In this document: piece by piece, positions 3,138-64,000 of the stretch
Position numbering within the stretch: the first letter of the stretch is position 1
Layout: each line of letters opens with the position of its first letter
Origin: Trichothermofontia sichuanensis B231
Lineage (GTDB): Bacteria > Cyanobacteriota > Cyanobacteriia > B231
Assembly: GCF_026240635.1 (NCBI RefSeq)
Contig: NZ_CP110848.1
Span: forward strand, 2,871,741-2,935,740
Length of the DNA stretch: 64,000 nt
Direction: 5' to 3'
Notes under the pieces: generated by a model
The model's input: the letters and a program-made list of their open reading frames with translations, nothing else
Told to the model about the DNA's origin: nothing
Databases searched by the model: none
Translations under genes and position numbers: made by a program

Positions 3138-4232
3138 TTAAGGTACCTGTGATGCTTCCCAGTACTGCTCTACCTGGGCTTGATCCAGATCCCGGCCAAT
3201 CAACACCAATCGGGTTTGGCGAACCTCATCTGCCCGCCAGGGCCGATCGTAGAAATAATCAAACCGGGGGCCGACCCCTTGCAACACCAACCGCATGGGC
3301 TTGCCGGGCACGGTTACAAAACCCTTGATCCGATAAATTTCCATCGTTTGGACGAGGTGCGTGAGGCGATCGACCAAGGGTTTTGGCTCGAAGGCACGAT
3401 CGCTCTGGAGATAGACTGCATTGATGTGATCGTCGTGCTCGTGATCTTCCTCCGTATCGTGGTGGCTGGGGCGTTGCTCCAGGTTGTCTTCAACGGCTGC
3501 ATTAAAACCCAGGAGGAGTTCGGATTCAATTTGGCCCTGGTGGCAGGGAAGCACCCGTACACCCGCCGGGATCTGATCGGCTAACCAAGTTTGGACTTGG
3601 GTAATCGTAGCGGCCTCCAGACGATCAGTTTTCGTCAATAACACCAGATCGGCACAATTGAGCTGATCTTCAAAGAGTTCGGCGATCGGGGTTTCGTGTT
3701 CCAGGTTGGGATCAGCCTGTCGTTGGGCTTCCAGTTGCGTCAGATCGCCGACCAACTGCCCAGCGGCCAGTGCCTCCCCATCAACGACCGCAATTACCCC
3801 ATCCACGGTTGCCCCTGTACGAATTTCTGGCCAGCGGAAGGCTTGTACTAGGGGTTTGGGGAGGGCCAGACCAGAGGTTTCGATCAGGATGCAGTCGATG
3901 TGATCGCGCTGTTTTAGCAGGGCTTGCATCGCGGGGAGAAATTCCTCCTGAACCGTGCAGCATAGGCAACCATTGGTTAGTTCAACAATCTGGGGGACGG
4001 TTGGGGTCGGATGGGTCCCACCCTTGGCCTGACCATTGGCTTCCGGCTCGACCGCAGAGTCCTCGCAGATTTGACAGGCGCGCAGCAGTTCCCCATCAAT
4101 ACCAACTTCCCCAAATTCGTTGACCAGCACAGCAATCCGGCGACCTGCTGGGTGTTGGAGCAAGTGGCGTATGAGGGTGGTTTTCCCGGCTCCCAGGAAG
4201 CCCGTAATCACGGTAACGGGAATTTTATGCAT
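3138..4232 (-). CDS. cobW: CobW-type G3E GTPase / metallochaperone
   Basis: This 364-residue protein has the G3E GTPase layout of COG0523. The P-loop GFLGAGKT is at residues 11-18, the metal-binding NGCLCC motif follows an ELT segment near residue 100, and a TKTD nucleotide-specificity motif lies near residue 200. A histidine/acid-rich stretch (SHHDTEEDHEHDDH) near 254-267 precedes the C-terminal CobW domain. Such proteins use GTP hydrolysis to deliver Co, Zn or other metals to client proteins. The clustered His and Asp are a likely metal-binding loop. It lies 67 bases downstream of ycf51 on the same strand. Which metal it handles cannot be told from the sequence, so the symbol reflects family naming rather than proven cobalamin function. 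Confidence 0.85.
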   Translation of the reverse strand: MHKIPVTVITGFLGAGKTTLIRHLLQHPAGRRIAVLVNEFGEVGIDGELLRACQICEDSAVEPEANGQAKGGTHPTPTVPQIVELTNGCLCCTVQEEFLPAMQALLKQRDHIDCILIETSGLALPKPLVQAFRWPEIRTGATVDGVIAVVDGEALAAGQLVGDLTQLEAQRQADPNLEHETPIAELFEDQLNCADLVLLTKTDRLEAATITQVQTWLADQIPAGVRVLPCHQGQIESELLLGFNAAVEDNLEQRPSHHDTEEDHEHDDHINAVYLQSDRAFEPKPLVDRLTHLVQTMEIYRIKGFVTVPGKPMRLVLQGVGPRFDYFYDRPWRADEVRQTRLVLIGRDLDQAQVEQYWEASQVP

Positions 4233-4299
4233 CTTAAAAATTGGGTTAATGGCGTTAGATGGTCACAATTCAGGGTATCTCCTCCGCCAATCCCTGCGC

Positions 4300-4827
4300 T
4301 TAGCTAGCAATAGGTGGGGGGAGTTGACGCAGGCGATCGCCGTAAATGTCAATTTTGAGATCGGGATCATTGCGTTGTGCCAGCGATCGTTGGACTTGGC
4401 CAAGGATCAAGGGTTGGGAGATACCCGGTTGTGGGTGGAGAATGGTGCGAGCGCGGATAGTGAGTTTGGCATCATTCTGACTACCGCGACCGAGGGAGTA
4501 GAGGTCACTGGCCGCCTGCTGGAGGGTGGCCTCTAATTCAGACCGCGTAATCGTATTGGGGACGCTGATCACGGCCTGGTTGGCCCCATTGTCATAGACA
4601 ACCACATAGCGGACTGCGCCAGGAACACTGGTGCGGGCAATGGGAAAGAGGCTGAGGGCGAACAGGCCAGTGGTTAACACGAGCATAAAGCCCGTAGTCC
4701 CCACTAGCCGGAAGCGAATTCCCCACTTTAGGGCAAAGCTAATCCCGGCCACAACCGCACACACAATCGTCAAGATCCCCGCCCATTGGGTCAGGGTCAG
4801 AAAGGTTTCTGGACTGAGGGTCATCAT
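4300..4827 (-). CDS. ycf51: Ycf51 family membrane protein
   Basis: The start at 4827 (or the adjacent ATG at 4824) gives about 175 residues. The protein opens with TLSPETFLTLTQWAG and two hydrophobic segments (about residues 8-28 and 38-58), with RFRLVGTTGFMLVLTTGLFA between and through them. This is the pattern of the cyanobacterial/plastid Ycf51 family. The soluble remainder ends in a proline-rich tail. The frame stays open to an ATG at 4878, but those extra 17 codons are partly encoded by a MITE-like repeat that begins at 4870, so the internal start is preferred. The molecular function of Ycf51 is not established as far as I know. Confidence 0.8.
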   Translation of the reverse strand: MMTLSPETFLTLTQWAGILTIVCAVVAGISFALKWGIRFRLVGTTGFMLVLTTGLFALSLFPIARTSVPGAVRYVVVYDNGANQAVISVPNTITRSELEATLQQAASDLYSLGRGSQNDAKLTIRARTILHPQPGISQPLILGQVQRSLAQRNDPDLKIDIYGDRLRQLPPPIAS

Positions 4828-4869
4828 AGCGTTTGATCGCGCTCCCTTAGCGATGGCTTTCTCACTATA

Positions 4870-4974
4870 TATAGTCATTACAATTTAGGCTGAAACAGCA
4901 CCCTCACCCCCCCTCTCTCCCTCACTGGGAGGAGGGAGTCAAAAATTGTATCGTTCTTATTTGAATTTACCATA
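4870..4974. mobile_element. MITE-like element, family 1
   Basis: This 105-bp element runs from TATAGTCATTACAATTTAGG to TTTGAATTTACCATA. The ends are imperfect inverted repeats (TATAGTCAT / TATGGTAAAT) beginning and ending in TA. The interior has GGCTGAAACAGCACCCTCAC and a CCCTC...GGGAG stem. Other copies are at 24996, 25968, 32369 (nested), 49230 and 62186. Confidence 0.7.
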
Positions 4975-5030
4975 TTTCTGATTTCTGTACGGATATTTCT
5001 AAATGGGGATCTCTCAATGGCTTAACAATT

Positions 5031-5082
5031 CCCCATTCCCTGTTGCCTGTTCCCCGTTCCCTATTCCCTATTCCCTATTCCC
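5031..5082. repeat. Degenerate CCCTATT / CCCTGTT tract
   Basis: Directly downstream of sufU lies a run of ATTCCCTGTTGCCTGTTCC and repeated CCCTATT units. Its reverse complement reads as GGGAACAG/GGGAATAG repeats. The same motif has entered the coding sequence of rsmB (35621-35700). Confidence 0.75.
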
Positions 5083-5580
5083 TCAAGCCTCCTCCCCTTC
5101 ATTACTAACGTAGCCCTCCTCAGGGGTTACGGCCTGAGGTTCGAGGGCGGCTCGCAGCGTATGCCAGGACAGGGTGGCACATTTGATCCGTACAGGGAAC
5201 TGGGCAACGCCTTGCATCACATTGAGTTTACGCAGTTCCTTGGGAAATTCTGCCTCCCCCTTCATCATGCGTTGGAAACGCTGCACCATTTCTAACGCTT
5301 CGGCAACGGTCTTACCGCGCAGGGCTTCGGCCATCAGGTCAGCAGACGCGATCGCGATCGCGCACCCTTCACCCTCAAATTTGACATCGGCAATCCGGCT
5401 CTCTCCATTGTCCGCATCCGGTGGGGCAAGGTGCACGGTCAGTTCGATCGTATCGCCGCAGGAAGGGTTATGGCCGCGTTGCTGGCGATCAATGGGATTG
5501 GTTTTGCCTTTGTGGCGCGGTTTTTTGTAGTGGTCAAGGATGACCTGTTGGTAGAGGTCGCGCAGGTTGCCCAGGGTCAT
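5083..5580 (-). CDS. sufU: SufU/IscU-type iron-sulfur cluster assembly protein
   Basis: This 165-residue protein starts MTLGNLRDLYQQVILDHYK, the usual opening of SUF-system NifU-like proteins. The three cluster or zinc-binding cysteines are in place: NPSCGD near residue 41, GEGCAI near 72 and RIKCATL near 134. SufU accepts sulfur from SufS and passes it to the SUF machinery. The family is usually about 145-150 residues, so this one has a short acidic C-terminal tail (EEGYVSNEGEEA). Its start overlaps the end of the 5-formyl-THF cyclo-ligase frame by 47 bases, suggesting co-transcription. Confidence 0.88.
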   Translation of the reverse strand: MTLGNLRDLYQQVILDHYKKPRHKGKTNPIDRQQRGHNPSCGDTIELTVHLAPPDADNGESRIADVKFEGEGCAIAIASADLMAEALRGKTVAEALEMVQRFQRMMKGEAEFPKELRKLNVMQGVAQFPVRIKCATLSWHTLRAALEPQAVTPEEGYVSNEGEEA

Positions 5581-6220
5581 GGCCTGTCAAGTTTTGTCCC
5601 GTCAAGGTTTGTCCAGTTTGCCTCTCTGATCCTAGCAGGGCTGACTCCCCTCTTGGAGACAGAAAGAGACCCGTTTCCGTGCAGACAGCATGTAGGGGAC
5701 GATCCCACGGGTCAATTGGGAGGCTAGGCACATAGGCGTTGTCAAATACCAGCCCGATCGTCGGTTGGGTTTGCCAGTCCGGATCCGCCAGCAGGCGATC
5801 GTAGTAGCCACCGCCATACCCCAGACGATAACCCCGGCGATCGCAGGCTACCGCCGGAATGAGGATCAAATCGATATCGGCGGGATAGAGGCGCGGTGCG
5901 GTGGGCAGGGGTTCTTGAATGCCATAGGGTCCGCTTATCAGAGGATCAGCGGGTGACCAATGATGCCAGATCAATGTGTTGTCTTGGCAGCGGGGGCAGC
6001 CCCAGCAGCGATCGGTACTGGCGATCATTAGGGGCATGAGGTCCGGTTCCTGGCGAATGCTGAAGTAGGCTAGAATGGTTCGCGCCCGTTGAAACCACGG
6101 CGACGATCGCAGGTGGTCGCAAATTTGCTGGCTTTTGCGCTGCCATTCGTTGAGAGACAAGGCCCGCCGCTGCTGTAGCCATTGGCGCCGCAGAATGGAT
6201 TTGGACACGAGAGATGACAT
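5534..6220 (-). CDS. 5-formyltetrahydrofolate cyclo-ligase
   Basis: From ATG 6220 this gives 228 residues (an in-frame TTG lies at 6235). It has the MTHFS/YgfA pattern: a basic N-terminus KSILRRQWLQQRRAL, ILAYFSIRQEPDLMPL, and the signature GYRLGYGGGYYDRLL that binds ATP and folate. The enzyme converts 5-formyl-THF to 5,10-methenyl-THF in one-carbon metabolism. The C-terminus is about 35 residues longer than usual and contains a low-complexity TGQTLTGQNLTG stretch encoded by GTCAAGGTTTG-like repeats; this extension overlaps the sufU start. The assignment is firm; the extension is unexplained. Confidence 0.88.
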   Translation of the reverse strand: MSSLVSKSILRRQWLQQRRALSLNEWQRKSQQICDHLRSSPWFQRARTILAYFSIRQEPDLMPLMIASTDRCWGCPRCQDNTLIWHHWSPADPLISGPYGIQEPLPTAPRLYPADIDLILIPAVACDRRGYRLGYGGGYYDRLLADPDWQTQPTIGLVFDNAYVPSLPIDPWDRPLHAVCTETGLFLSPRGESALLGSERQTGQTLTGQNLTGHDPGQPARPLPTGHP

Positions 6221-6370
6221 AACGGGATCAGCCAATATCCTCTAGGTTGGGCGGGTTTACAAAGGTGTTCGGTTTCTAGGAGAGAGTTGAGGGCAACCCG
6301 CCCCTACAAAGATGTGATAACGCATCAATCCCATGCGTCAATTTGAGGGATCAAGAGACATCAACCTTCA

Positions 6371-6424
6371 TGGGTACTCGTGGGTACTCGTGGGTACTCG
6401 TGAGTACTTATGGGTACTCATGGG
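6371..6424. repeat. 10-bp tandem repeat at the 3' end of speA
   Basis: Five units of TGGGTACTCG (the fourth and fifth with changes) plus a partial sixth run head to tail. The tract covers the speA stop codon (TAA at 6410-6408) and the last codons of the gene. Because of the gene orientation, the repeat encodes the C-terminal HEYP and continues downstream. Confidence 0.9.
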
Positions 6425-8420
6425 TCAAATAGGTATAACGGCTTAGACTGCGTTCATAGTTCGAGAGCAATAACTGGGATTCCTGAAGCGTAATCCGATG
6501 ATCTTGCAGGGCTTGCTCCGTTTGTTTACGGATATTTTCTACCAGATCTTCCGAGTTATATTGCACATAACTCAGAACCTCAGTCATGGTATCCCCTTTA
6601 ACAACATGTTCAATAGCATACCCCTTAGGGGTAAGCTTAATATGAATCGCATTGGTATCGCCAAACAGGTTATGGAGATTACCCATAATTTCCTGATAGG
6701 CTCCTCCCAAAAAAAGACCTAGATAGTAGGGTTCACCAGGTTTGAGCGGATGCAATTCCAGCACTGATTTCACATCCCGCAGATCAATAAATTGATCGAT
6801 TTTGCCATCACTATCGCAGGTGAGATCTGCGAGGGTGGCTCGTTCTGTCGGTTCTTCATCCAGACGGTGAATTGGCATGATCGGAAAAAGTTGATCAATA
6901 GCCCAACTATCCGGTACCGATTGGAAGACGGATAAATTGATGTAGTAAATCGATGCCATGATTTTTTCCAAATCTTCCAGATCATCGGGCACATAGTCCT
7001 GTTGACGGACAATCTGTTGAATCTTACGACAACAGGCCCAGTATAACCGTTCTGCCTTGGCCCGATCGCGCAAACTTAGATACCCAAATGCAAACAGACT
7101 AATCGCCTCTTCCTTAAATTGGGTAGCATCATGGTAGGCTTCTTGATAATTCTCTTCACTGATGGACTGATAGGTTTCGTAGAGATTGCGCACAATCAGA
7201 TGATCCCCACTCTGCACCGGATCGGGCGTTTCAGTCGGGACTTCACTAATCCCTAAAACGTCAAAAATCAAGACCGATTGATGGGAGGCGATCGCGCGTC
7301 CACTTTCGCTAATCAGGGTTGGTACAGTAATCGCCTGTCCCTCACAGGCTTCCTTAACTTCTGCCACGATGTCATTGGCGTAGTTTTGCATATTGTAGTT
7401 TTTCGAGGCATGGAAGTTAGTTTTGGAGCCGTCGTAATCAACCCCCAGCCCTCCCCCAACGTCAAGGTAGCGCATATCAGCACCCAGCTTGGCTAGCTGA
7501 ACGTAAATCTGACTCGCTTCCCGAATGGCATCTTTAATCACACTAATGGCCGAAATTTGCGAGCCAATGTGAAAATGTAATAGTTGTAAACAGTGCAGCA
7601 ACCCCGCTTCCCGTAACTGCTCAACCGCATCCAGGATTTCGGGAATCGTTAGCCCAAATTTAGCCCGATCGCCCGTGGAGCATCCCCAACGCCCCACGCC
7701 CTTACTGCTGAGTTTGGCCCGGACCCCGACGATCGGTTCAATCTTCAACTTGCGACTGGCTGCAATCACTAGGGGGACCTCTTCCACCTGCTCTAGGACA
7801 ATAATCGACAACTTGCCCAACCGTTGAGCCAGCATCGCTGTTTCAATATATTCCCGATCTTTATAGCCATTACAAATCAGCAAGGCTCCTGGCGTATCCA
7901 ACAGCGACAGGGCAATCAGTAACTCTGGCTTTGATCCGGCTTCCAGACCAAACTGGTGAGGCTTACCAAAGCGTACTAAATCTTCCACTAAATGGCGGTG
8001 TTGGTTACATTTAACCGGAAATACCCCCTGATAGGTACCCGCATAGCTGTAGCGGGCGATCGCCTTGGCAAAACACGCATTTAACCGTTCAATCCGATCT
8101 TCCAAAATGTCAGAGAAACGAATCAATAGCGGCAGTTCCAAGTTGCGCTGCTTAAGCGCATTGACCAATTCAAACAGGTCTAATGACCCCCCGCGATCGG
8201 CCTTGGGGGAAACCGTCACATGGCCGGCGGCATTGATCGAAAAGTATGGCTCGCCCCAACCATTGATACGATAAAGTTCCTCACTGTCCTCGATCGTCCA
8301 TGCCGAGGTGGCTAACCCAGGTACTGATGTCGATCGCGCCGCTCCATCTGTAACCAGCAGCGATGGCACATCCCCATTCTCCTGAGCAACAGCCGTCGAT
8401 TGTTCCAACTTTGAACCCAT
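6408..8420 (-). CDS. speA: Biosynthetic arginine decarboxylase
   Basis: This 670-residue PLP enzyme has an alanine-racemase-fold barrel. The PLP-lysine motif is in [15 protein letters not shown] near residue 137, the glycine-rich phosphate loop is [13 protein letters not shown] near 320, and [20 protein letters not shown] follows. The length and order match bacterial SpeA, which makes agmatine from arginine and CO2 in polyamine synthesis. The gene is divergent from ndk across a 90-base gap that must hold both promoters. The stop codon lies in a 10-bp tandem repeat, so the exact C-terminus may vary between strains. Confidence 0.95.
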
Positions 8421-8510: not shown

Positions 8511-8960
8511 GTGGAAAGAACGTTTATTGCCATTAAACCCGACGGCGTTCAACGGGGATTAGTGGGGGAGATCATTGGCCGTTTTGAGCGCAAAGGCTTC
8601 ACCTTGGTGGGCCTCAAGCTCCTCAATGTAAGCCAGGAACTGGCCGAATCCCACTATGCCGTTCACCGGGAACGCCCCTTCTTTAAAGGCTTGGTGGAAT
8701 ACATTACGTCTGGTCCGGTAGTCGCAATGGTGTGGGAAGGCGATGGGGTCGTCGCTGCCGCCCGCAAGTTGATCGGGGCCACCAATCCCCTAACGGCAGA
8801 ACCCGGTACGATTCGGGGCGATTTGGCCATCAACATCGGTCGTAACCTCATTCACGGCTCGGATGCGATCGAGACCGCCCAACAGGAAATCGGCCTCTGG
8901 TTTACCGACGCCGAACTGGTGGGCTGGGAACCGACCCTCAGCCCCTGGCTCCATGAATAA
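8511..8960 (+). CDS. ndk: Nucleoside diphosphate kinase
   Basis: The GTG at 8511 is preferred: it gives the standard 149 residues starting (M)[19 protein letters not shown] and has AGGAG nine bases upstream. The active-site histidine is H115 in [15 protein letters not shown], and the nucleotide-binding residues are in the usual places ([19 protein letters not shown]). The enzyme balances NTP pools by phosphate transfer through the histidine. A longer frame from 8457 adds 18 residues with no family match. Confidence 0.95.
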
Positions 8961-9377: not shown

Positions 9378-10139
9378 GTGCTAGGAACCCTACCATTTCC
9401 AGGACAAGCCCAAGGTGGCGAACGGCTCCTGAGCCAGGTGGTCACGCGGGCGATCGCGGCCCTGTTTCGGCGTACCGAGCACCTGGAGGCCACGGTGCGG
9501 GTGGAGCCAATGGCCAAGCTCTTGCAGGGCAGCGTCGATGGCTTTGAGCTGCTCGGCAAGGGGATGTTGATGTACAACGGCCTGCGCATCGAGGCGATGG
9601 AGTTGTACCTGGAGGCTGTGGCGATCGACTTTGGCGGTATCCTGCGCGGCCAAGTGCATCTGCGCCAACCCACCCAGGCAACGATGCGGGTGGTGTTAAC
9701 GGAAGCCGATTTGACCACTGCGTTTAATACGCCCTTTGTGGTAGAAAAATTGCAGCGGCTCCAGTACGAGGGAAAACCGCTCTATTTCCGCGAGACAGTG
9801 ATGACGATCGATGGCGAGACGAAATCGCTGCGGCTGCAAACCCAGATCCAGGTGGGCAATGCCGATCAACCGCTGGCGGTCGATTTAACGACCCAGTTAG
9901 CCATCGAAGCCCGTCGGAAGTTACAGTTTGTTGAGGTGGAATATCGAGGGGAACCCGCGGCGATTGCCCTGGGGCAAGCCCTGATTGCCCATGTCAACCA
10001 ACTGCTGGATTTAGACAAATTCGCCCTAGACGGAACCCAGCTACGGGTCGATCGCGCTCGCATTCAGCCTCACACGATCGTCTTCTACGGCACGGCTCGG
10101 ATTGACCACTTTCCCCAGAGCAAACGGCAGGCCGCCTAA
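9378..10139 (+). CDS. DUF2993 (LmeA-like) family protein
   Basis: A GTG start gives 253 residues; no ATG is available near the N-terminus. The alternating beta-rich pattern (GSVDGFELLGKGMLMYNGLRIEAMELYLEAVAID, read in shorter parts) and TEADLTTAFNTPFV match the DUF2993 proteins common in cyanobacteria, which resemble the actinobacterial lipid-binding protein LmeA. No clear signal peptide is seen from this start. An ORF antisense to it is a shadow. The function is unknown; lipid binding is only an inference from the family. Confidence 0.7.
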   Translation: MLGTLPFPGQAQGGERLLSQVVTRAIAALFRRTEHLEATVRVEPMAKLLQGSVDGFELLGKGMLMYNGLRIEAMELYLEAVAIDFGGILRGQVHLRQPTQATMRVVLTEADLTTAFNTPFVVEKLQRLQYEGKPLYFRETVMTIDGETKSLRLQTQIQVGNADQPLAVDLTTQLAIEARRKLQFVEVEYRGEPAAIALGQALIAHVNQLLDLDKFALDGTQLRVDRARIQPHTIVFYGTARIDHFPQSKRQAA

Positions 10140-10343
10140 ATCGGGCAAAGTGTGATACGCTTTGTTACGATAAGTAACGACTCGCCCATTCCGGTCTAAC
10201 GCGGGTCAATGGCAATCATCCCATCTGGGGATATCCCCGGTGTGGCTGCCATTTCGTTTTATCCGTTCACTGCTCTTTGGCTGGCCCAGACGATTGATTT
10301 GGGATAAGGGCACCCCAGGAGCACAATCATTGTTAAGGACTCT

Positions 10344-11714
10344 ATGACCTTTGAAACCCTCGGCCTTTCGACCGAAATTCTTCGTGCTGTCGCCGATCAG
10401 GGCTATAGCGAACCGACGCCTATTCAGCAGCAAGCGATCCCCCTAATTTTGCAAGGCCGGGATCTGCTGGCCAGCGCCCAAACAGGAACCGGTAAGACAG
10501 CCAGCTTTACGCTACCCCTGCTGCACCGCTTGGGCAGTAACCGTCGTCCCCAACGCCGCTCTTCCTCGCCACGGGCCTTGATCCTGGTACCGACCCGTGA
10601 GTTGGCAGCCCAGGTAGGGGAGAGTGTCCAAGCCTATGGTCAATATCTCCCCATGCGATCGGCGATCGTTTATGGGGGGGTGAAGATTGGCCCCCAAATT
10701 CAAAAGCTACGGCGCGGCGTTGACATCCTAATTGCCACTCCCGGTCGTCTGCTCGATCACCTCGGCCAGGGTACCGTTACCCTGGAGCAAGTGGAAATGC
10801 TGGTGTTGGATGAGGGCGATCGGATGCTCGACATGGGCTTCCTGCCGGATATTCGTAAGATTCTGGCGCAATTGCCCCAAACTCGGCAAACAATGCTGTT
10901 CTCAGCGACCTTCTCCCCAGCAGTGAAGAAACTGGCAGCAGATCTGCTGACTGATCCGGTCCAAGTGGAAGTGGCGCCCCACAATACAGCGGCGGAGACG
11001 GTGGAGCAACTGATTCATCCGGTCGATCGCCACCGCAAGCGGGAACTGTTGTCCCACATGATTGGCTACCGCAACTGGGGCCAAGTTTTGGTCTTCACCC
11101 GGACCAAGCACGGCGCCAACCGGCTAGCGGAACAGTTGGCGAAGGATGGTCTGAAAACCGAGGCAATCCACGGCAACAAGAGCCAAGCGGCCCGATCGCG
11201 TGCTCTGGCCAAGTTTAAGCAGGGAGCAGTTCAGGTGTTGGTGGCGACCGATATCGCGGCCCGGGGTCTGGATATTGATCACCTGCCCCACGTGGTAAAT
11301 TTTGAACTGCCGATGGTGCCGGAGGACTATGTGCACCGCATTGGTCGCACGGGTCGCGCCGGTAAGGCAGGGCAAGCCATCTCCCTGGTTAGTCCGGAAG
11401 AGTATACGCTGCTGAAGGGGATTGAACGCCTGCTCAAGCGCAATCTCCCCAAGGATGTGGTGCCGGGATATGAGCCGACCACTCCCCTCCCTGCGGGGGT
11501 GGAAATGTGCAGTCGCAAGCGTTCACCGCATCCCCGTTATCGAGGTAATCGTGACCAAGGGCGGGGAGTGACTCGTCCGACACGACTCCCGGAAGGAGAC
11601 CTGATGCGATCGTCGCGATCGTCGGTCCCAGTGAAACCGGCCAAGGTGCCAACGCCGCGCTTCTCGGGCACAGATGCGGCGCGATCGTCGGATAAGCACA
11701 TGCATTCTGCCTAG
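10344..11714 (+). CDS. DEAD-box family RNA helicase (RhlE-like) with DEGD in motif II
   Basis: This 456-residue protein has the Q motif ([14 protein letters not shown]), motif I AQTGTGKT at 45-52, Ia PTRELAAQV, Ib TPGRLLDH, motif III SAT, and C-terminal motifs including ARGLDIDHL and HRIGRTGR. Motif II reads [14 protein letters not shown], so the canonical DEAD is DEGD (residues 156-159). The Asp and Glu that coordinate Mg and activate water remain. The C-terminal 70 residues are basic and Ser/Arg-rich, typical of an RNA-binding tail. Expected roles are RNA unwinding and ribosome or cold adaptation. A palindrome overlaps the stop codon. Confidence 0.9.
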
Positions 11715-11731
11715 ACCCTAGCTAGGGTCTA
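11712..11731. terminator. 20-bp palindrome overlapping the helicase stop codon
   Basis: TAGACCCTAG is followed by its exact reverse complement CTAGGGTCTA. The first TAG is the helicase stop codon. The hairpin is followed by only a short AT stretch, so terminator function is possible but not proven. Confidence 0.45.
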
Positions 11732-11781
11732 ATCTGAAGTTGAGGGTAACCGGGGTATTTTGACAAGCGGTTGCCCTGTTT

Positions 11782-12957
11782 TCATTTTTGGGAAGGGCTG
11801 CCTTCACTGGGAGCCATAACTTGCAACAACTGCTCAACCACATGTTGCCAGGTAAACCGCTCCCGGACAAAGGCAGGTCCCCGTTGCCGCGCCTGGGCCA
11901 TAAACGCTGAATGCTCGATCGCCGTTTGCATCAAACTGATTAAATGCTCTAGGTCCGGGAACAAGCCATAGCGCTCCTCCCCCTCCAACTCGATCGCCCG
12001 CCGTTGGCTCTTAATCGTCAAGGCAAAATCAGGATGGGTAAAATCATCCGTGGGACCCCCCTGGGTACAAATGACCGGCAATCCGCACGCTGCGGCTTCT
12101 AAGACCGGCAAATTAAACCCCTCAGCCACATAGGGAGCCACATAGACATCTGCCGCCTGGTACAACTTCGCCACCTCGGCAAAAGCGAGCGTATCCCCCA
12201 TATATTGACACCGAGGCCGCACGCGATCGGCTTCTGCGGTACTCAAGATTGCCCGACTACTGGCCGCGATCGACTGACGCGAGCCGAAAATGGCCTCCCG
12301 GCCCTTTAAAACTAACCTGGCCTGGGGATAGTGCTGGACAATCTGGGCAAATGCCTTCAGCAGCAACCCAATCCCCTTCCGATTGCTCATCACACTGACG
12401 TTGAGAAAGACAAACTCATCCTGCCAGCCCAACTGGCAACGCAACGCTTGCCGCTCAGCTTCCTCCACAGGATGGTAGAGGTCAGGATCAAACCCGTGGG
12501 GAATAATCACAATGCGATCGGGATCAATTCCACTGAAGACCAGCCCGGCCTGTGACCACACCGAGGGCGTCACGATCGTGACCCTGGGGTCTAAAACCAG
12601 ATCTTTGAGGGACGCGATCTTCATCGCCCGTTGCATCACCGCTGTGACCTTGCCCCACTCCGTTACGGCACAGACCAGCGTCCGCTGCGAGGGAGCGGCT
12701 GCAAAATTAAAGGGGCCATAGAGACGGAGGGTGGCATCAGCAACTTGACCCGGTTGCGGGGCAGGGATCGCCGCGATCGCCGCTTCCTGTTCTGGTCTCA
12801 TCAGCCCACGCACGGGTTGCCAATCCGCGACGGCAAAGGGTGCATCCTGATGGAACAGTTCTAGCTGGGGATACGCTTGCAGGGCGAGTAATTGAAACTG
12901 GTTGACGATCGCATAGGAGTGGGGGATAAACCGCCAGCCTTCGACAATAAGTTGCAT
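11782..12957 (-). CDS. Glycosyltransferase, GT4 type
   Basis: This 391-residue protein has the GT-B fold pattern of family GT4. Nucleotide-sugar features are VIIPHGFDPDLYHP, FLNVSVMSNRKGIGLLLKAF and the E-x7-E motif AEGFNLPVLEAAACGLPV near residues 281-296. Such enzymes add sugars to lipids, exopolysaccharide or other acceptors; donor and acceptor cannot be read here. It starts 15 bases after the stop of the flavoprotein gene on the same strand, so the two are probably co-transcribed. Confidence 0.85.
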   Translation of the reverse strand: MQLIVEGWRFIPHSYAIVNQFQLLALQAYPQLELFHQDAPFAVADWQPVRGLMRPEQEAAIAAIPAPQPGQVADATLRLYGPFNFAAAPSQRTLVCAVTEWGKVTAVMQRAMKIASLKDLVLDPRVTIVTPSVWSQAGLVFSGIDPDRIVIIPHGFDPDLYHPVEEAERQALRCQLGWQDEFVFLNVSVMSNRKGIGLLLKAFAQIVQHYPQARLVLKGREAIFGSRQSIAASSRAILSTAEADRVRPRCQYMGDTLAFAEVAKLYQAADVYVAPYVAEGFNLPVLEAAACGLPVICTQGGPTDDFTHPDFALTIKSQRRAIELEGEERYGLFPDLEHLISLMQTAIEHSAFMAQARQRGPAFVRERFTWQHVVEQLLQVMAPSEGSPSQK

Positions 12958-62342: not shown

Positions 62343-62966
62343 TCAATGATCTAGACTACCAACTATTGTATCGGTTTGAGGTGCAACTGCGGATTCTGTC
62401 AGTATCTGTATTAGTTGTTCTAATTCGGTCAACTGAAGACCCGGTAGACGTTGACGATAAATCGTTATCAATTCTTGATAAAACCATAGGGTTTGCTCAC
62501 GTCCACCTTTGAAGACTTGCCACATTTGTTCGCCATAAATAGCTAGATCAGTGACCAGCGATCGCGCATTATCCAATTTATCGGCGAGGGAAACCCGTAG
62601 CACAGAAAGTGATGCTTGCCGTAATTGGTCAAGATAACCCTGTTTACGTTCTAACCACGGGGGTTTAGGTAGGGTATAAACTTCACTACAGCCATCCACG
62701 ATCGCGACGACTTTCTCCCCAAAACGGTGTTGAATTTCTGCCCGAATTGCTATTCCCCCTTGATCTTCGAGAGCGTCATGGAGGAGAGCCGCGATCGCTT
62801 CGTCTTCATCGCCACCGGCTGCTAAGACGAGGGCCGTCACACTGAGAAGATGGCCAATGTAGGGAGTACCGTTAATTTTACGGACCTGGTGGCGATGTAG
62901 TTGGAAAGCATAGGTGAGAGCTTCGGCAAAGCGATCGCTCAACTGGGTAGTGGGAGGGGTCATCAT
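62343..62966 (-). CDS. SpoT/Mesh1-type HD hydrolase
   Basis: This 207-residue single-domain protein has the metal- and (p)ppGpp-hydrolase residues of the Rel/SpoT HD domain: H39 in YIGHLLSVTAL, H63-D64 and E67-D68 in LLHDALEDQ, and D129 in SLADKLDNAR. There is no synthetase domain, so it resembles a small alarmone hydrolase; another nucleotide substrate is possible. Its ATG overlaps the stop of the upstream WYL-type gene by one base (TGATG), implying translational coupling. That association is unusual for a housekeeping alarmone hydrolase. Confidence 0.85.
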   Translation of the reverse strand: MMTPPTTQLSDRFAEALTYAFQLHRHQVRKINGTPYIGHLLSVTALVLAAGGDEDEAIAALLHDALEDQGGIAIRAEIQHRFGEKVVAIVDGCSEVYTLPKPPWLERKQGYLDQLRQASLSVLRVSLADKLDNARSLVTDLAIYGEQMWQVFKGGREQTLWFYQELITIYRQRLPGLQLTELEQLIQILTESAVAPQTDTIVGSLDH

Positions 62967-64000
62967 CAGGATTGATAGAGTTGATATTCTGCCTTAACTT
63001 CCTGGGCAAAGGCTTGACGCAGGTGCCAGGGTAACAGGATTTCGCCGTGGGGTCGCCATGCCCGCAGGCGTTGTCGGATATTGGTATCGCCATCACGGTA
63101 GATAGCTCGGTAATAGGCATCCGTGTTGGAGCGAGCATTGAGAATGGCTAGGAGGCGCTGTTGTTCAGCCGGACAATTATTCTGCTGGATTAACGCTCTG
63201 GCTTGTTGGTAGGAAATCCGGGTAAAGGTTTCATGGCGAAAGGTATCGCGAATATAGCGATCGTGGAAGTTACGTTCAAAACGTAGTAGGAGAGTTCGTT
63301 CAGGTAAATAAAAGTCGAATCCCCAGGCTGTTGACAATGCTTGGATAATATAATCGGGTGTAGGTAAAGCTCGCTGTTGATAAGACTGAATTAAGCAGTC
63401 TGGCAGTTCTGGATCTTCCCAGGTTAAAGGTTGTAGATCTTGAATACGATCGAGACGATAATTATACCATTGTGCTGTTGATAGGGGGGTTTGGCCAAAG
63501 GCGCAGAGATAGGCGGCGCGTTGCGCATAGTAAATACAAACGGGATAACTATAATAAGTATCTTCAGAGTCTATCCGAGCACTGTAATAGGTGAGGGCAA
63601 GAGGGGGAATGGGTTCCTGCGCCCAGATTTCCCGGAGTTGGGCGTACCAATCTTCGACGCGATCGAGAATCTCTTGAGAAACGATGTAGTCAACATGTAG
63701 GAAAAAGCGTTGGTATCCCCCAATGGTTTGGGAAAGCGATTGGGCCAGACTGGCAAGATCGGGGTTAAGGAAACTGAGGGCTTCATGCTGAAGCCGCACG
63801 TCAACACAGCTACCCACTCGACTGATGGGATAGGCGGGAAAGGCTGTGACTTTAACGTAGTCATTGCCTTGACGCTGGAGCCACTGAAGTTCAACCAGAT
63901 CTTGAAAATCAGCCTGGAGGGAACGGCGGGTACGGTCAAAGAGACGCTCGCTGAGCCAGGTCTCTACTTTAGAATCCCCTAACTGCGTGTGTTGTTGGAA
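62966..64000 (-). CDS. WYL-domain protein resembling CRISPR-associated TIGR03985, N-terminus beyond the right edge
   Basis: The frame is open from the right edge to 62966, giving at least 344 residues. The first visible part is helical and basic (RSLQADFQDLVELQWLQRQG). A WYL-like core follows (YYSYPVCIYYAQRAAYLCAF and QWYNYRLDRIQDLQPL), then LLLRFERNFHDRYI and a conserved C-terminus (AYYRAIYRDGDTNI and LLPWHLRQAFAQEV). I recall this layout from TIGR03985 proteins found in cyanobacterial type III CRISPR loci. A GTG at 63817 is internal. WYL domains sense nucleic acids or nucleotides and often regulate cas genes. Confidence in WYL is good, in TIGR03985 moderate. Confidence 0.68.
   Translation of the reverse strand, partial: FQQHTQLGDSKVETWLSERLFDRTRRSLQADFQDLVELQWLQRQGNDYVKVTAFPAYPISRVGSCVDVRLQHEALSFLNPDLASLAQSLSQTIGGYQRFFLHVDYIVSQEILDRVEDWYAQLREIWAQEPIPPLALTYYSARIDSEDTYYSYPVCIYYAQRAAYLCAFGQTPLSTAQWYNYRLDRIQDLQPLTWEDPELPDCLIQSYQQRALPTPDYIIQALSTAWGFDFYLPERTLLLRFERNFHDRYIRDTFRHETFTRISYQQARALIQQNNCPAEQQRLLAILNARSNTDAYYRAIYRDGDTNIRQRLRAWRPHGEILLPWHLRQAFAQEVKAEYQLYQS

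Follow-up and report, generated by a model that had tools for sequence, protein, structure and literature searches.

Why should the gene of a protein resembling alarmone hydrolases be joined to that of a CRISPR-associated WYL regulator, and does the pair take part in CRISPR immunity? The question arises at the right end of the window, by which we mean the entire 64,000-nt stretch of the Trichothermofontia sichuanensis B231 genome analyzed here. The original prediction, made from the sequence of this stretch, described an overlapping pair of HD and WYL genes and proposed that the two function together, possibly in type III CRISPR signaling. The source genome consists of one 4.44 Mb contig, and the right flank of the window is thus readable.

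The WYL-HD pair and its type III neighborhood

The predicted overlap was confirmed by the ORF coordinates: the TGA stop of WYL and the ATG start of HD have one base in common (TGATG). The WYL gene starts with an ATG at window-equivalent position 64324 and encodes a complete protein of 452 aa. The pair and the features to its right are as follows (window coordinates, or locus coordinates where prefixed with L003 or L004):

62343..62966, minus strand: HD gene, encoding a predicted RelH-type small alarmone hydrolase of 207 aa; second gene of the putative WYL-HD operon
62568..62882, minus strand: codons for the catalytic residues of the hydrolase (R29, H39, H63-D64, E67-D68, D129, N133), the full set being present
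62964..62968, minus strand: TGATG, WYL stop overlapping HD start (sequence reading)
62966..64000, minus strand: 3' portion of the WYL regulator gene (TIGR03985), which runs past the right edge of the window
L003:2363-2382 (window-equivalent 64363-64382): palindrome CTGGAAGAGGGTATTTCCAG, which separates WYL-HD from the cas operon and lies 38 bp upstream of the WYL start
L003:2864-20000 and L004:1-11588: type III locus right of the window, divergent from WYL (profile searches)
L004:8861-8880: second palindrome, upstream of csx3 (ATG at 8923), with a TAGAGT hexamer at a distance of 8 bp

Domain content, residues and modeled fold place the HD protein among the small alarmone hydrolases (SAHs) of the RelH type. 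Profile searches assigned it to Pfam HD_4 (2.1e-24), and RelA/SpoT models matched in their hydrolase part only, the synthetase domain being absent. The listed catalytic residues agree with those of solved alarmone hydrolases, as the original prediction had held in describing a full Rel/SpoT hydrolase set without a synthetase. The nearest solved relatives are RelH of Leptospira levettii (7QOE; 158 bits) and of C. glutamicum (7QOC), and the AlphaFold model (pLDDT 89.6) had its best fold match in 7QOE (rmsd 1.5 Å, TM 0.83/0.91). Combined profile and fold searches found the HD fold alone and no match to Csx3, CARF or Crn ring-nuclease families; likewise, no PADLOC model matched the protein. Among characterized SAHs, C. 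glutamicum RelH hydrolyzes (pp)pGpp, and others cleave (p)ppApp or NADPH too (PMC10434055, PMC9765508).

Relatives of HD with 50–56% identity to the window protein were seen in Chloroflexota and Thermomicrobiota (L219, L232, L237, L264), with no WYL or CRISPR genes nearby. Two putative viral contigs from IMG/VR also carry small alarmone hydrolase-like genes (L200:4920-5522 and L199:2057-3028), one of them near a DNA methyltransferase-like gene, with no CRISPR link in the stretches read.

The WYL protein, thought from its sequence to be TIGR03985-like, matched this model at 328–330 bits (cut-off 60) over positions 1–249 of 249, which marks it as a clear CRISPR-associated member of this family, and its gene is the only TIGR03985 gene in the genome. 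A sequence search detected no relative in the PDB. In a structure model built from the sequence of a relative (pLDDT 84.8), the closest folds were DriD, PafBC, CapW and BrxR, which regulate DNA-damage and phage-defense responses, at a TM by query of only 0.2–0.3 and a pTM of 0.56, so that a place among the wHTH-WYL-WCX transcription regulators is tentative; structures with ssDNA exist for DriD and CapW. Judged by these nearest folds, the modeled WYL protein resembles DNA-damage- or ssDNA-sensing regulators and need not sense the substrate of HD. A related WYL protein, Sll7009, is a repressor, acting as a negative regulator of a I-D system (PMC10212523), and PMC6789036 names Sll7078 as a repressor.

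Just right of the window, starting 540 bp from the WYL gene and divergent from it, a type III locus extends over about 29 kb. Its first module comprises, in order, a CARF-PDDEXK nuclease, Cas10d (GGDD), Cas7, Csx10, Csx7, Csx19 and a TIGR03986 RAMP; the second has a Cmr2-type Cas10 (GGDD), Csx7, Csx10, a small protein and three Csm3-like RAMPs, and is followed by a CARF-HEPN Csx1, Csx3, Csx3-AAA and a second CARF-HEPN. The locus thereby holds three CARF effectors (one CARF-PDDEXK, two CARF-HEPN) and two Csx3 ring-nuclease genes, and it is III-D-like genes (cas10, csx10, csx19 and RAMPs) that adjoin the HD-WYL pair. The expectation that extending the contig rightwards would reveal a type III system held for the cas genes, which are present at 1–20 kb. 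It failed for the CRISPR array, none turning up between about 42 kb on the left of the pair and about 58 kb on its right (roughly 100 kb).

The locus thus described carries a tandem of two type III effector modules, both complete, that have one set of CARF effectors and Csx3 genes in common. By-eye calls suggested Uma2-like and nucleotidyltransferase-like ORFs between the type III genes (L003:5763-6368, 10083-10757 and 11326-11895). Three Cas1 genes lie far from the locus (G000:C1:141995, 775704 and 1883648), one within a 568-codon open frame that is perhaps a fusion.

A conserved linkage and a palindrome at the −35 place

Across genomes, comparison shows both a conserved HD-WYL linkage and a palindrome at the −35 place of the associated promoters. 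TIGR03985 was present in 55 of 386 cyanobacterial genomes sampled, and in 12 of these 55 an HD gene lies directly behind WYL on the same strand; in one further genome of the sample (G008) it lies directly upstream. All 13 intact adjacent pairs have Csx3, CARF, Cas10, Cas6 or RAMP genes within the stretch read, versus none of the 67 HD loci without WYL (Fisher 3e-15, with loci counted as independent whatever their relatedness). Csx3 itself occurs at 11 of the 13 pairs and at 24 of 36 WYL-only loci, numbers too small to claim enrichment. A set of 80 named genome loci contributed 29 more adjacent pairs, 28 of them with Csx3, CARF or cas markers; since two repeat earlier genomes, these represent about 27 further genomes. 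Recurrence of the same arrangement in dozens of genomes argues against chance. Nearby cas genes, a conserved neighborhood and a CRISPR-type WYL match are in each case the opposite of the three findings named beforehand as refuting the original prediction, and the proposed functional pairing gains support from the conserved linkage together with the common promoter motif described below.

Intergenic spacing in the pairs runs from −8 to about 120 bp and is 23 bp or less in most of them, and the exact 1-base overlap is not universal among the pairs compared. In Allocoleopsis, HD lies near WYL with two crn3 genes in between. Plasmid-borne pairs were found in Synechocystis (PCC 6803 pSYSA, 7338, 7339, B12), Nostoc (three), Sphaerospermopsis and Gloeothece, and adjoin III-A, III-B and III-D modules. 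On pSYSA the HD gene stands behind sll7078 (gene name per PMC7283877), from which order we infer that it is sll7077. As about three quarters of TIGR03985 genomes have no HD, the hydrolase is optional to WYL loci; it can also outlive its partner, since in one genome (G078, contig C52; L070) HD is intact while the WYL gene in front of it has decayed to a remnant.

Trees of HD proteins separate the paired copies from a chromosomal stand-alone paralogue. Several genomes carry both; the genome studied here has no stand-alone paralogue. The catalytic residues are conserved alike in the CRISPR-linked set and the stand-alone paralogues. The paired HDs of Synechocystis share 72% identity with the stand-alone paralogue of the same genus versus about 50% with other paired copies, and group with that paralogue in the tree. 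A single clade of all paired HDs was rejected by an AU test, which is rough given a quick tree with long branches. Because of this rejection and the Synechocystis grouping, HD was probably brought to WYL in at least two separate recruitments, or WYL was lost several times.

The palindrome, YTGGAA-N8-TTCCAR, lies about 60 bp before WYL in 43 of 80 upstream regions (≤1 mismatch), against 0.23 expected from simple shuffles; it was first spotted as an inverted repeat and then scanned for, so the discovery and test sets overlap, and the specificity controls came later. These controls indicate that both spacing and half-sites are specific, since N8 gave 26 distinct sites in the loci scanned and other spacings 0–3, and permuted half-sites gave a median of 0. 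About 40 of 56 distinct sites precede WYL, Csx3 or HD, mostly in the divergent gap between WYL and Csx3. Of the 92 flanks belonging to 46 sites, 63 have a TANNNT hexamer 7 bp beyond the palindrome edge and 11 have one at 8 bp (74 of 92 together), all other offsets having 0–9 each. With a −10-like hexamer at this distance, the palindrome falls where promoters have their −35 box, in many cases for two promoters arranged back to back. Among divergent WYLs (about 35% identity) the exact palindrome is mostly missing.

The 4.4 Mb genome studied here contains two exact sites, both at the HD-WYL/type III locus. As a reversed control pattern was equally frequent, it is their position and not their number that counts as evidence. 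The site between the two operons is flanked at 8 bp by GATAAT on the WYL-HD side and by TAGAGT on the side of the CARF-Cas10 operon. In four Calothrix/Dulcicalothrix genomes, all with TIGR03985 elsewhere, a lone HD gene is directly preceded by the palindrome and TATACT. In a tree, these detached HDs fall, with moderate support, within the paired lineage; their four sites have one and the same sequence and may reflect a single inheritance. Because the own-genome sites lie at WYL-HD/cas and at csx3, and because detached HDs keep the site, HD and the ring nuclease probably form one WYL-controlled module. From position and co-occurrence alone, we infer that WYL would be the palindrome-binding protein.

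The Allocoleopsis plasmid pMIC7113.03 (L192) has palindromes upstream of cas10, at csx3/WYL, behind HD and, at a distance of about 55 bp, upstream of cas6; its cas10 and WYL genes are separated by TnsA-like, ATP-binding and TniQ-family genes (3644-8395).

Proposed role of the pair and alternative explanations

On balance, we lean towards a two-gene WYL-HD operon acting as the control and clean-up arm of cyanobacterial type III CRISPR, in which alarmone is cleared alongside cyclic oligoadenylate. A WYL dimer would bind the palindrome at the −35 position of the WYL-HD, Csx3 and, here, Cas10-operon promoters, and would switch these promoters, as either activator or repressor, in response to infection or DNA damage, the cue being ssDNA as with DriD and CapW. 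HD, co-produced with WYL, would be a Mn-dependent hydrolase taking the 3'-pyrophosphate off (p)ppGpp or (p)ppApp, as in the RelH family, while Csx3 would degrade cyclic oligoadenylate. With both dormancy-holding signals erased together, the cell would recover; alternatively, Rel-made alarmone might be kept from adding to the CRISPR shutdown. The arrangement suggests that this type III immunity includes, as a built-in element, the clearing of a nucleotide signal.

HD could instead act in type III signaling itself, by trimming the 3' (or 2') phosphate from linear oligoadenylates released by Csx3 or by hydrolyzing a Cas10 product. Co-regulation with Csx3, from which HD is often divergent, is consistent with this, as is the acceptance of 3'-/2'-phosphorylated adenine nucleotides by MESH1-type relatives: XccSAH cleaves NADPH (PMC9765508), and the fold matches include MESH1 structures with PAPS and NADPH. 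The closest solved relatives are nevertheless RelH (pp)pGpp hydrolases, and the catalytic set, where compared, is that of the stand-alone paralogue and gives no sign of a new pocket, so we consider this reading unlikely. Similarly improbable in our view is HD as a dedicated type III off-switch in series with Csx3, trimming the phosphorylated linear product of the cyclic oligoadenylate that Csx3 opens, or destroying a second messenger made by Cas10 or Rel. Recruitment of a small alarmone hydrolase as a CRISPR signaling enzyme was nowhere described in our literature search.

A further explanation holds that HD is a general protection gene, directed against (p)ppApp-making toxins or phage-triggered alarmones and hitchhiking under the regulator of a defense locus. 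SAHs often serve as toxSAS antitoxins (PMC9765508), the locus is a defense island with plasmid copies, and HD is found in merely a fraction of WYL loci. Yet the long Rel, about 195 kb away, carries the genome's sole synthetase domain, and no toxic alarmone synthetase was found adjacent to HD or elsewhere in the genome, for which reason a role as toxSAS antitoxin was rejected. HD is moreover linked to WYL in particular, in most cases immediately following it, and detached HD genes retain the promoter motif, which makes the explanation quite doubtful; hitchhiking in its simple form, without any link, was rejected by this motif and by the 13/13 versus 0/67 distribution of CRISPR markers.

That HD degrades the ligand of the WYL sensor in feedback on the regulator, as the operonic pairing of sensor and hydrolase with often overlapping genes might imply, is very improbable, as the closest WYL folds are DriD, PafBC and CapW, the ssDNA of the DriD and CapW structures would be no substrate for an alarmone hydrolase, and the pair is missing from most WYL genomes.

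For the control and clean-up arm that we favor, the parts are already known: the SAH family, TIGR03985, WYL regulation of CRISPR and Csx3. In the papers searched we found no HD-WYL pairing, CRISPR-linked alarmone hydrolase or YTGGAA-N8-TTCCAR motif; older accessory-gene surveys may mention the HD family as an unnamed one. The pair would tie a stringent-response alarmone family to type III CRISPR by operon, promoter motif and probable separate recruitments. It also predicts, for cyanobacterial type III systems, which regulator goes with which promoter, and this is testable in Synechocystis 6803 (sll7077/sll7078, pSYSA). Joint regulation of ring nuclease and alarmone hydrolase would, in addition, allow tests of how cells recover from dormancy induced by cyclic oligoadenylate.

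Comparison with known systems

HD is like the RelH-type SAHs (L. levettii 7QOE; C. glutamicum 7QOC/7QOD; MixSpo, formerly Mesh1-L) in fold and length, in its full catalytic residue set and in having no synthetase. It differs from them in being known from sequence and encoded behind a CRISPR WYL regulator, with a promoter motif in common with Csx3 and cas genes; our literature search found no CRISPR link for any known RelH-type member. As in toxSAS-antitoxin pairs (FaRel/ATfaRel), a small alarmone hydrolase lies within a defense-related operon, but unlike them it has no toxic synthetase partner in locus or genome. With the Csx3/Crn3 ring nucleases HD has the promoter motif and locus in common, and both are nucleotide-signal degraders by family, whereas HD differs in fold and is not a member of a ring-nuclease family.

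The regulator belongs with the TIGR03985/Sll7078-type CRISPR WYL proteins by its 330-bit match. DriD, PafBC, CapW and BrxR are the nearest matches to the modeled fold of its relative and are related in role, as is Sll7009. In the literature searched we met no operator-like YTGGAA-N8-TTCCAR with a fixed spacing to two −10 boxes placed back to back. Here too, as for these WYL regulators, the promoter is divergent and carries a palindrome; the motif of PafBC is non-palindromic (PMC6789036), in contrast to the palindromic YTGGAA-N8-TTCCAR of the TIGR03985 loci.
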